The position numbers and the translations under genes are program-made. 64,000 bases of DNA, taken from Acidobacteriota bacterium (GTDB lineage Bacteria > Acidobacteriota > Terriglobia > Terriglobales > Acidobacteriaceae). Below, piece by piece: positions 1,133-63,006 of the stretch. Below the pieces are notes generated by a model. The model searched no databases and had not been told where the DNA came from. It saw nothing but the letters and a program-made list of their open reading frames with translations. Positions within the stretch are counted from its first letter, which is position 1. The number at the start of each line of letters is the position of its first letter. Where the stretch lies: positions 289,170 to 353,169 of the forward strand of contig JABCZL010000007.1 of NCBI GenBank assembly GCA_013289685.1, read 5' to 3'.

Positions 1133-1620
1133 AGGTCGGTCTCCTTGCGCGCCTGATCACGGAACTTTTCCAGTTCCGCTCCCCGAATCGGTGGCACGCC
1201 GGCGGGCGGGGGAGGCGGCGGCCGGTTCTTCCAATTGCGAACTACGAAAACCACAGTGAGTACTCCCACGCCGAGTGCGACGAACGGCACGATCCACGCG
1301 GTGCGATCGAAACCCGTCTTGGTGGGGGCGGCGAGTACCGTGGGTCCATACTTTTGCACGAACGCTTGCTCGACCAGGCTGTCGCTGTCGCCGCGGCTGA
1401 TGGCGGCCATCAGCTCGTTGCGCATGCCGTCGGAATCGGGGCAGCCGACGTGGTTGCACTCCAGAAGAATCTGGTTGCAGCTGCAGATGCACATCATCTG
1501 GTGGCCGAGTTCGTTGAAGCGGGTGGCGGGATCGCCGGCGCCGGTGAAGGCGAAGACGGCGAGACAGAGTGAGCCGCATTGCAGGAGGCGGCGGAGGGTC
1601 GGGTTGAGTTTTGTGGTCAT
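1129..1620 (-). CDS. ccmH: Cytochrome c-type biogenesis protein CcmH-like
   Basis: 163 aa with MMCICSCNQILLECNHVGC, then MRNELMAAISRGDSDSLVEQAFVQKYGPTVLAAP and a TM segment as in CcmH; downstream of ccmF. Confidence 0.78.
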   Translation of the reverse strand: MTTKLNPTLRRLLQCGSLCLAVFAFTGAGDPATRFNELGHQMMCICSCNQILLECNHVGCPDSDGMRNELMAAISRGDSDSLVEQAFVQKYGPTVLAAPTKTGFDRTAWIVPFVALGVGVLTVVFVVRNWKNRPPPPPPAGVPPIRGAELEKFRDQARKETDL

Positions 1621-8150: not shown

Positions 8151-8276
8151 GCAATTGCCGCGACGTAATCACGATGCCTGCCTGTGAATTGAGGAGTGTC
8201 CCGTCTGGCCCCGCATTTTCCCTGAGTTCGTCCCCGGGTTTCCATGCTCGCGCGGGATCAATCACGCCAGTGCTTT

Positions 8277-8720
8277 TCACAGCAGAAGAATGTTTCCGAT
8301 GAGGGTGACCAGCAGAATGGTCCCGAGCAAGAGAACGGCGGCGGCCATCTGGAAATTAGGGTTGCGGAAGACACTCTCTTTCCTGCCCATGCGCTTCAAT
8401 GTCCGGGAATACTGAGTGATCATAAGGAACAGGGGAATGATTCCCACCGCCAGCATGAAGCCGCCAATGTTCCTTGGCGTCTGAGGCCGCATGATGACTT
8501 TCATCGGAGAATGCTCCTGCACGTACTTCAGGACATTGAATATCGTGAATCCAAAGCCGATAAGTGCCATCGATGTGCGCACCCCGGCCAGCATCGTTCG
8601 GTCTGCTGCCAGAACGGTCCGTTCAACAGCAAGCCTGTCGGCCAGTTTCAGTTCTTGCTTGAATTCGTTCTCTTCTTTTTCTATTTCGCTTCCTGCCCCA
8701 CTTTTTTCTTTGTCTAGCAT
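8277..8720 (-). CDS. DUF202 (YidH-like) membrane protein
   Basis: VERTVLAADRTMLAGVRTSMALIGFGFTIFNVLKY... typical DUF202 motif. Confidence 0.8.
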   Translation of the reverse strand: MLDKEKSGAGSEIEKEENEFKQELKLADRLAVERTVLAADRTMLAGVRTSMALIGFGFTIFNVLKYVQEHSPMKVIMRPQTPRNIGGFMLAVGIIPLFLMITQYSRTLKRMGRKESVFRNPNFQMAAAVLLLGTILLVTLIGNILLL

Positions 8721-8958
8721 TTTGTTCTTTCGCCGTCTTCATCCCCTGCGATATCCACAGGCTCAGGAGCTTCAGGGGAGGTTCTGGTCGCCAATAGTAC
8801 TTGTGAACTGGCAGTCTGCACGCGGACACGGGAAAGGCTGGGGCGCACGCCCAGTCTGTGTTATGCAACGTTTTACAAAACCGGAGAACTCTGGAGTTTC
8901 GCCATTTTCTCTTCTCCTTGCGAGAGGATTCACAGCAAATGTCCGCCACCATTTCGTA

Positions 8959-9276
8959 TCACGAAGACGTCTGAAGGCCGACATAGAGGCCATCCGGGCG
9001 TGACTCAACAGGGAAGGAGCGGACGTTCAACCCCAACCCTGGCTGCAGCTCGCCGGCGGTCACGTTGACCTTCATCCCATGCGATCGGCAAGTAACCACG
9101 TAGCCATCGAGACGGCCCATTGCCAGCGATGACCCTTGGTGCGGGCAATTGTCGTCAATCGCGTACAGTCTCCCGTCAACGTTGAAGACAGCAATAGAGA
9201 TGCCTTCGACCTCGAAGGCTCTGCCCGCGCCGCGAGGCACATCGTCGATTTCAGCGATTTTGATCCACTGAGTCAT
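8959..9276 (-). CDS. Rieske (2Fe-2S) ferredoxin-like protein
   Basis: CPHQGSSLAMGRLDGYVVTCRSHG matches CxH-x(15-17)-CxxH. Confidence 0.88.
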   Translation of the reverse strand: MTQWIKIAEIDDVPRGAGRAFEVEGISIAVFNVDGRLYAIDDNCPHQGSSLAMGRLDGYVVTCRSHGMKVNVTAGELQPGLGLNVRSFPVESRPDGLYVGLQTSS

Positions 9277-9331
9277 GGTCGGCCTCGCTACGCACTCCAG
9301 TTCTGCCTAGTCCGTTGATCGCGCCCGGCAC

Positions 9332-56076: not shown

Positions 56077-56208
56077 TTTTTTCATTCCCATGGCGGGGAG
56101 CGTCTCTCCCGCCCGTCCGATTCTTCCCCGGCTCCTGACTGTGCGAGCTTGCGATCGCGGGTTTGGGATCGCTCCAACTGCGGGTAAAATGAAGTCTGTG
56201 GTTCGCGC

Positions 56209-56249
56209 GGGCGCGTAGCTCAAACGGATAGAGCATCGGATTTCTAATC
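56209..56249 (+). pseudogene. 5' half of tRNA-Arg(UCU), truncated after the anticodon loop
   Basis: gggcgcgtagctcaaacggatagagcatcggatttctaatc; the expected continuation (ccga...) is replaced by gtccaactcac. No T-arm or acceptor 3' strand follows. Confidence 0.85.
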
Positions 56250-60716: not shown

Positions 60717-60959
60717 ATGGGATCCGAACCTTCTGAAGTAATCCAGCAACCGCGGTCGAATGATCAACTGGTAGCGGCCTACGCACACCTGCGTCTGAGC
60801 CAGGAGCGTGCACGGCTCCTCCAGGAGGCAGCGAAGCAGCGCGCGAAACATCCGGTACAGGCGGGCCTCACGTTAGCACGAGCGAACGCGCTCAAGGTCG
60901 CGCTGAATTTCTTTAAGGCCCTACAGAAAGAGAATGCGGGCACAACGGCCAGCGAGTGA
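60717..60959 (+). CDS. Hypothetical small protein
   Basis: 80 aa ending at a strong terminator hairpin. Confidence 0.4.
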   Translation: MGSEPSEVIQQPRSNDQLVAAYAHLRLSQERARLLQEAAKQRAKHPVQAGLTLARANALKVALNFFKALQKENAGTTASE

Positions 60960-60995
60960 GAGGTGCAGCTCTCATTTGCTGGCCGTTTTTGTTTT
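60944..60995 (+). terminator. Strong rho-independent terminator overlapping the upstream ORF stop
   Basis: AACGGCCAGCGAGTGAGAG-gtgcag-CTCTCATTTGCTGGCCGTT followed by TTTGTTTT. Confidence 0.85.
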
Positions 60996-61042: not shown

Positions 61043-62263
61043 ATGGCTGCACGAGCTGAGCAAGAACCGAAACCAAAACTATCGCTAGAGATCCGCATTG
61101 GCGAGTCGACGCTCTATGACCATGCACCGGGAATGCGCGCCGTCTTAAAGGAAATAGCGATCATGACATCGTCGCCGGGATCGGAGAAGAAACCAAAGAG
61201 TGATGGTTTCGACGCGGGGTGGAACTGGGCCGGCTGGTGTTGGCCCCAGGAAAAGACTCTTGCTGGTCGCACAGGCAATTGTGAGCGACTAGTGAGAAAA
61301 GCCGTGCATCGATTCCAGGCGGATAGCGTCGTTGAAATCCGCAGTTGGCGGGATCGATCGGGACGGCCGCATAACGCCTATCGCATCCGGGAAGAAGTGA
61401 TCGACGCGGCAAGGCGTAAACCGGGTGAGGATCGGAAGCGCCGGAGTGATCGCAAGGCGAATGCTACCAGCTACAAAAGCCATAGGAACGCTGAGAGCCA
61501 TAGGAACGCCTGTCCCATCGACGTTGCGACGGAAAGCCATAGGAACGCTGAGCCAGCAGCCATAGGAACGCTGAGCCATGAGCCACAGGAACGCGAGCCA
61601 CGAAAGCCACAGGAACTAGATGCCGTGGAGGTTGGTTTAGTACGAGGTGGGTGTATTGAGGTATGTGAAGAGGGGGGTGTTAGGGGGGAGAGTTCAAGTC
61701 AGACGTTGACAGCAGAAGAGCAACACCGCGCGCCCAAAACCGGCGCGCCTTTTTTTCCAGATCCTTCACCCCAAATTCAGCAGCAAGAGCAACCGCAACC
61801 GCAACCGCAAAACCTTCCTGGGGAAGTGGAAGAGCAACGGCAACGGCAACAGCAAGAGCAACCGCCAGAGATCGATCAACCTACTCCACAGAATCATTTC
61901 GAACCTGGTGCGCACGAGATCCTCGCGGCCTATCCACGCCAGAGCGGCTGCATTCCGATTCTCGATGCACGGGCAGCGCTGGAGCGCGTAAAGCAGGCAG
62001 GATTGTCCGCATCCTGGCTGCAGGCCCAAGTTTGGGAGTTCGGAAAGAATCCGGGCGGGTTAGTTCCACCATTCGGGACGTGGATGCGCCGAAATTTGGA
62101 GAGGCTAATCAGCGCGGCATCCGCTGTGCAGACCGACGTCAGACTGGAGACAGGAGAACAGAACGATGAACTCAAGCGCGCAGTTGAAAGCGGTAACGTT
62201 GCGACCGATGCGAGCGTGGAGAGGCCACGAGAAGGACCTGGACGCGCTGCTGGTCTCGATTGA
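61043..62263 (+). CDS. Candidate phage replication initiator (lambda O-like layout)
   Basis: N-terminal basic region with winged-helix-like sequence (WNWAGWCWPQEKTLAGRTGNCERLVRKAVHRFQADSVVEIRSWRDRSGRPHNAYRI), central DNA repeats, Q/P-rich linker, C-terminal helical region. ATG at 61043 preferred over 60956 because of the intervening terminator. Confidence 0.55.
   Translation: MAARAEQEPKPKLSLEIRIGESTLYDHAPGMRAVLKEIAIMTSSPGSEKKPKSDGFDAGWNWAGWCWPQEKTLAGRTGNCERLVRKAVHRFQADSVVEIRSWRDRSGRPHNAYRIREEVIDAARRKPGEDRKRRSDRKANATSYKSHRNAESHRNACPIDVATESHRNAEPAAIGTLSHEPQEREPRKPQELDAVEVGLVRGGCIEVCEEGGVRGESSSQTLTAEEQHRAPKTGAPFFPDPSPQIQQQEQPQPQPQNLPGEVEEQRQRQQQEQPPEIDQPTPQNHFEPGAHEILAAYPRQSGCIPILDARAALERVKQAGLSASWLQAQVWEFGKNPGGLVPPFGTWMRRNLERLISAASAVQTDVRLETGEQNDELKRAVESGNVATDASVERPREGPGRAAGLD
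61478..61616 (+). repeat. Iteron-like array, six copies of AGCCAyAGGAACGCtGAG
   Basis: Copies start at 61478, 61496, 61535, 61558, 61581 and 61605; core agcca(t/c)aggaac. Confidence 0.88.
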
Positions 62264-62468
62264 GGACCGCGTCGTCGCCTGGCTGAACCAACACGGCGGA
62301 CCGGTCAACGACGACATTCGCCGGCAGATTGGCTGGCAGTTCATCGTCGGGATGGGATGGAACCGGCTGCAGCCCGAGGAAGCGCCGCGGTTGGAGATCG
62401 TTTCGCGGAGAGATGTAGAGCCGTCAGTGCAGGGCGAGTTGTTCGATCGGCCGGAGGCAGTGCGATGA
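62166..62468 (+). CDS. Hypothetical protein
   Basis: 100 aa, overlaps the initiator 3' end and the next ATG (ATGA at 62465). Confidence 0.45.
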   Translation: MNSSAQLKAVTLRPMRAWRGHEKDLDALLVSIEDRVVAWLNQHGGPVNDDIRRQIGWQFIVGMGWNRLQPEEAPRLEIVSRRDVEPSVQGELFDRPEAVR

Positions 62469-62835
62469 ACGAGCGGTTAGCCGACATCTGGGACGACTAC
62501 GCGGTGAAGCAGGAGATGGAGCGAGACCTTGGCGACAACGAACCGGAGGAGAACGATGAAGACGAAGAGCACGAAGGCCGGCAACGGAGTGGACCCCATC
62601 GAGCGCGCCCGAGTTGAGCGAGTGGGAAAACTTCTGGCGCAGGTTCTGACAGAGCTGCGCTGGCGGAGGAGTTGTGCAAACTTTATCCGATGCAGGTCGG
62701 GAAGTTGCAGTGACTTTTTCAGGGCACAGTTCGGGCACGGTTGCGCAAAAGGCAGGCCCAGAGCGGCTTTCGAGAGGCGCGGAGGACTAAGAGTCCGCGG
62801 TGGATGAACGCAGAACGGCACGGAGGGCGCGACGA

Positions 62836-63006
62836 ATGAAGAACGGCGATACGGGGAAGTGTCCGTTGTGCGGCAAGCCATGCCGCTGGGACGAGGAAAT
62901 TGTACAGATGCACGCGGGCACCGATGGTTTCGTGCATTTCGACTGCCTGCAGGAGACGGCGGAATCTCTCGTCGACACCGAGCGCGAGATCGGGAGGCGC
63001 GCGTGA
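62836..63006 (+). CDS. Small zinc-ribbon protein
   Basis: MKNGDTGKCPLCGKPCRWDEEIVQMHAGTDGFVHFDCLQETAE: CPLCGKPC...HFDC. Confidence 0.5.
   Translation: MKNGDTGKCPLCGKPCRWDEEIVQMHAGTDGFVHFDCLQETAESLVDTEREIGRRA

Follow-up and report, generated by a model that had tools for sequence, protein, structure and literature searches.

A lambda-O-like candidate initiator gene with a putative iteron array inside its coding sequence in an integrated acidobacterial element

Introduction

In phage lambda, the replication origin lies in the middle of the initiator gene O, and lambdoid phages carry four to six iterons of about 18–23 bp, with six in the Stx phages P27 and 933W (PMC7466680, PMC4488673). The N-terminal half of lambda O is the DNA binder, and binding between O and ori is highly specific, such that other lambdoid phages fail to complement (PMC7466680, PMC4488673). 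A strand-asymmetric stretch lies beside the iteron array of lambda ori (PMC4488673). An origin inside its own initiator gene is an arrangement already known from the lambdoid phages. Iteron plasmids of the RepA/RepE type also combine a winged-helix initiator with iterons, here of about 22 bp and usually located outside the rep gene. Among satellites, PICIs, which a helper phage induces and packages, measure about 12–15 kb, have a specific att site and an integrase but no structural genes, and carry a pri-rep module and two sets of iterons flanking an AT-rich region (PMC6092414).

Here we analyzed a 64-kb stretch of an Acidobacteriaceae genome (the window), in which a single ORF contains six short repeats. 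We consider it probable (roughly 0.85, judged from sequence) that this ORF encodes a lambda-O-type initiator, that the six in-gene repeats are its iterons, and that gene and origin form one unit. The earlier note on this DNA had likened the locus to lambda ori within O, and the likeness extends to two features and, in part, to a third. The array lies inside the candidate initiator gene between the DNA-binding and C-terminal parts, the N-terminal part is predicted to be a winged helix, and a strand-asymmetric stretch directly follows the array. Unlike lambda, neither the window protein nor its homologues match a Pfam O family, no relative was present in the deposited phages searched, and the candidate unwinding stretch is G-rich and just mildly AT-rich (47–52%). 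A gene for a lambda P-type helicase loader was likewise not recognized beside the initiator among the neighboring and element ORFs scanned, and the hosts are Acidobacteriaceae. The window locus resembles iteron plasmids in its predicted winged-helix initiator with iterons, but it is chromosomally integrated, and a PLSDB search returned no plasmid-encoded relative of the window protein.

Results and discussion

The repeat array is read in three frames

Six copies of the 12-bp core AGCCAYAGGAAC lie at 61478-61616, inside the ORF at 61043-62263, with start-to-start spacings of 18, 39, 23, 23, and 24 bp.

61478..61489, + strand, putative iteron 1, frame SHRN
61496..61507, + strand, putative iteron 2, frame SHRN
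61535..61546, + strand, putative iteron 3, frame SHRN
61558..61569, + strand, putative iteron 4, frame AIGT
61581..61592, + strand, putative iteron 5, frame EPQER
61605..61616, + strand, putative iteron 6, frame KPQEL, then TGCCGTGG

A recount returned the same six copies, coordinates, spacings, and frames as the earlier note. Copies 1–3 are read as SHRNA, copy 4 as AIGTL, and copies 5 and 6 as EPQER and KPQEL, using all three reading frames. The repeat had been described as an 18-mer, which is correct for copies 1, 3, and 4, all three without a mismatch (with up to three mismatches allowed, these were the three matches, against 0.10 expected in the shuffled window); copies 2, 5, and 6 have the core in common but differ beyond it. 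When the codons of the ORF were shuffled synonymously with protein and codon usage held fixed (n = 5000), the mean was 0.20 cores and the maximum three, and six were reached in 0/5000 shuffles. Since the shuffles rarely give cores and never six, the protein sequence does not account for the repeat. Together, the three frames and the shuffles uphold the proposal that the repeat is conserved as DNA and not as protein.

The 6.85-Mb genome contains nine cores in total, six in the array and three as isolated singles, and a reversed-pattern control of the core gave seven matches in the same genome. Of 397 genomes from the order, one contains closely spaced pairs of cores, and these lie solely at the window locus. 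Such repeats are not widespread in genes of the host, and we rejected a genome-wide dispersed repeat. A CRISPR-like array was also rejected, as the repeats are too short and coding and the spacers irregular.

The encoded protein has a predicted winged-helix domain

60944..60987, + strand, terminator-like stem-loop with T-rich DNA after it, in the gap separating the initiator gene from the ORF upstream; kept in the sister element
61043..62263, + strand, candidate replication initiator gene, 406 aa from ATG; the frame is open up to a GTG at 60956
61127..61414, + strand, predicted winged-helix domain, residues 29-124 (AlphaFold2 models; Foldseek)

AlphaFold2 predicted a winged helix comprising helices at residues 29–43, 70–77, and 81–93 and a beta hairpin at 97–103/109–115, with a mean pLDDT of 71 for the N-domain construct (moderate confidence). 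Foldseek searches with this N-domain returned solved winged helices and viral HTH proteins, among them the O replication protein of Escherichia phage Min27 (9.2e-5). Modeled at full length, the protein has a pLDDT below 50 over residues 136–261, which cover all of the repeat-coded residues, and helices are predicted between residues 309 and 382, C-terminal to this stretch of predicted disorder. The modeled domain layout is that of an O-type initiator with its putative origin placed over the linker. The window protein matches PHROG replication-initiation families weakly (E 0.0034), and its relatives match O-like and replication-initiation families better, at 4.8e-6 for L010 and 1.7e-6 for L040. 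A profile search of the PDB returned nothing. Based on the predicted O-like N-domain and the PHROG and Foldseek matches, we retain the designation of this ORF as a candidate initiator gene.

Relatives carry arrays at the same place

Relatives were sought in 300 relatives, 398 family genomes, 396 phylum genomes, GTDB species genomes, and viral contigs. These searches gave only four homologues that carry arrays. L010 and L011 come from Acidobacteriaceae MAGs of the same genus and L040 from the same family; L022, found by its DNA repeat pattern, is encoded on a viral contig of 42.5 kb together with a terminase large subunit (5.8e-26). N-domain identity to the window protein is 34–42% for L010, L011, and L022 and 30% for L040. 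The arrays of L010 and L011 comprise six units at 60, 23, 23, 23, and 23 bp in three frames, and in both, as in the window, the last unit is followed by TGCCGTGG. L022 has five units at 22, 23, 23, and 23 bp, which read SHRNSQP, LPQEQSAD, SHRNGQ, NAIGTVS, and REPQEHP and again occupy all three frames. The repeat core in L010, L011, and L022 is GCCAYMGGAAC, as in the window. Between the window and L022 genes, the N-domain DNA is 55% identical, and all shared exact 12-mers fall inside the repeats.

The most distant of the four, L040, has a diverged unit, TACCGTAAGTTCAACGG, present as six direct copies at 22–24 bp plus one inverted copy. Its array (1285-1441, minus strand; genome G429) lies between an N-domain ORF terminated by a stop and a separate downstream ORF, a split layout that may reflect a frameshift or a sequencing error. 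Across these relatives the repeat sequence co-varies with the N-domain, as judged by sequence comparison, which favors the reading that the encoded initiator binds the repeats as iterons and that the origin lies inside the gene. As for the prospect of homologues lacking the repeats, L010, L011, L022, and L040 all carry the array at the same place. The search of phage contigs for the repeat in homologues, suggested in the earlier note, gave one such homologue, L022, by DNA pattern; the other 18 of 19 viral contigs with the DNA dyad pattern were rejected as simple, protein-level, or unrelated repeats.

No close relative was found when viral contigs were searched with the window protein alone, nor among the INPHARED phages, and a profile search of the phylum yielded no addition apart from the own genome. 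L014, a more weakly matching relative, has the strongest O-like PHROG match (3.5e-19) and a DnaB-like ORF, identified by eye, directly downstream of its initiator. The L014 gene also contains four AAGGGTGAAA repeats (1468-1560), 22–24 bp apart and in two frames.

A sister element differs in both initiator and repeats

The same genome carries a sister element where contig C1 ends (L053, G000:C1:828001-838508), with its initiator region at 8273-9328. Its flanks are 77% identical to those of the window up to the initiator start and 94% identical from the initiator 3' end onward. The right border of this exchanged cassette is marked by a small gene.

62166..62468, + strand, small downstream ORF, overlapping the initiator 3' end

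This ORF is 96% identical in the sister element and, in a search of 300 relatives, turned up nowhere but in the two elements carried by the own genome. The N-domain encoded by the C1 gene is unrelated to that of the window, and its in-gene array consists of six copies of CTTCCCTCAKATT (also represented as CTTCCCTCAGATTC) at 24, 42, 22, 23, and 21 bp, one of them out of frame with the others. With the flanks kept and both N-domain and array different, initiator and repeats have been replaced together. The C1 protein does not match O-like PHROGs significantly (E 0.21–0.28), so its label as an initiator rests on position, array, and flanks. The C1 repeat was not found in viral contigs, and searches of phages, of viral contigs, and of 200 related genomes gave no relative of the C1 N-domain.

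One tentative extension is that a single gene serves as a complete replicon cassette, swapped between small satellite-like acidobacterial elements. If so, the two sisters in one cell might have shared backbones and different origins that do not cross-react. The C1/window pair offers a natural test of whether embedding keeps initiator and origin linked under recombination.

Sequence features next to the array

61627..61686, + strand, strand-asymmetric stretch, candidate unwinding element, GC skew 0.94, 47% AT; adjoins putative iteron 6
61728..61748, strand not assigned, GC-rich inverted repeat GCGCGCC-CAAAACC-GGCGCGC, downstream of the array, then a run of T

Within the 64 kb, a GC skew of 0.94 is matched by just 0.011% of windows 60 bp long. 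The AT content is 52% at gene nucleotides 571–630, compared with 43% overall; an AT-rich peak directly after the array is present in L010 and L040 and absent in L022 and C1. The GC-rich inverted repeat occurs at only two places in the genome, in the window contig C7 and in C1 (L053:8826-8846), where it also lies downstream of the array, and a search of viral contigs gave no copy. The C7 and C1 copies share one reading frame (RAPKTGA), and the inverted repeat may act as a hairpin signal of the origin or may simply be coding sequence that is conserved. Together with its T run, the window copy looks like an intrinsic terminator within the ORF.

The gene lies in an element at a tRNA gene

56207..56249, + strand, left attachment site; its 43 bp contain the 5' half of tRNA-Arg(TCT)

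This 43-bp site is identical to the region of an intact tRNA-Arg on contig C32 (C32:6510-6552; L048:6510-6552). The intact tRNA lies at the integrase end, and integration of the element duplicates the tRNA 5' half; the element thus carries the 5' part of the tRNA rather than the usual 3' part. C32 also encodes a tyrosine integrase (PHROG 2.1e-43, Pfam 1e-22) and an excisionase-like ORF (1.4e-5). The window end overlaps the start of C32 by exactly 127 bp, which gives an element of about 14.2 kb. Because C1 ends in the same 127 bp, common to C7 and C32, the join of C7 to C32 rests on the att match, and we regard it as likely but not certain.

Among the element ORFs scanned, no structural, terminase, primase, or helicase genes were recognized. 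The locus may be a chromosomally integrated phage, satellite, or remnant. The earlier designation of a phage origin fits the relative L022, with a terminase on its contig; for the window element, in which structural genes were not detected, it is one possible reading. An ORF of 257 aa at L048:2174-2947, rich in Gly, Ala, and Pro and without a family match, could encode a structural protein. Like PICIs, the window element is about 14 kb, sits at a tRNA gene, and combines an integrase, an excisionase-like gene, an initiator, and iterons with no detected structural genes. Unlike PICIs, it has no primase or pri-rep pair among the ORFs scanned and no recognized master repressor, and its single array is inside the initiator gene rather than in two flanking sets.

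A candidate gene-origin unit and its alternatives

A lambda-O-like initiator with its own origin inside the gene is by far the best explanation of these observations. The N-terminal winged-helix domain would bind each repeat of about 23 bp, and several initiator molecules together would form a nucleoprotein complex over the array. The adjoining strand-asymmetric stretch downstream would then open, and the C-terminal helical part may help to recruit the host replicative helicase. The repeat-coded residues would form a flexible linker in which any reading frame is tolerated. The tRNA-Arg-integrated element of about 14 kb could use this gene-origin unit to replicate after excision. We infer initiator-repeat binding, unwinding, helicase recruitment, and origin activity from sequence comparisons and predicted structures.

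The array could instead be a site for another protein, such as an operator or a partition/centromere-like site, that lies in the initiator gene by chance. Clustered repeats at about two helical turns are typical of operators and iteron-like centromeres as well. We consider this improbable, since the repeat changes together with the initiator N-domain, both across relatives and in the C1 sister with its shared neighbors, and a site for a separate protein should not track the initiator gene. It is very improbable that the repeats act as a protein-level linker peptide or arose by recent slippage without a DNA function. The region does code for what is predicted to be an unstructured linker, and such linkers tolerate tandem duplications, but the repeats give three unrelated peptides in three frames, the synonymous shuffles never reached six cores, and the same core persists where N-domain DNA is 55% identical. 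The regular 23-bp phasing in relatives, and the L040 array located after the stop codon of its N-domain ORF, also argue against a role at the protein level.

A further question is whether the gene is a degenerate remnant of a decayed prophage or satellite whose origin no longer works, which would be compatible with a lambda-O-type ancestry. Consistent with decay, the element is only about 14 kb, structural, terminase, and primase genes were not detected, and the initiator ORF falls under the cut-off of a codon-usage caller trained on the host. Loss of function nevertheless seems rather unlikely: the 406-aa frame is intact with its stop, the integrase frame and att sites are intact, and the core is unbroken in all six copies. 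An element this small and with no structural genes detected would also be in keeping with a satellite such as a PICI (PMC6092414).

The earlier suggestion of a new sequence family agrees with the lack of close relatives in INPHARED and PLSDB and of a Pfam O match; the in-gene arrangement itself is classical for lambdoid phages. Within the reach of the searches, novelty lies in the initiator family, its repeat, and the way acidobacterial elements exchange the cassette, and the literature searched yielded no paper joining Acidobacteria, prophage, and iteron. The lambda-type arrangement would thereby reach the mobile elements of a soil phylum that has been little studied, with a protein and a repeat of a new family. 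If working, the locus would be a compact one-gene replicon and a possible basis for plasmids in Acidobacteriaceae. Farther downstream in the window, a small ORF at 62800-63006 encodes two CxxC motifs and weakly matches DUF2175 as well as function-unknown phage families; the sister element has a similar ORF (L053:9622-9834).
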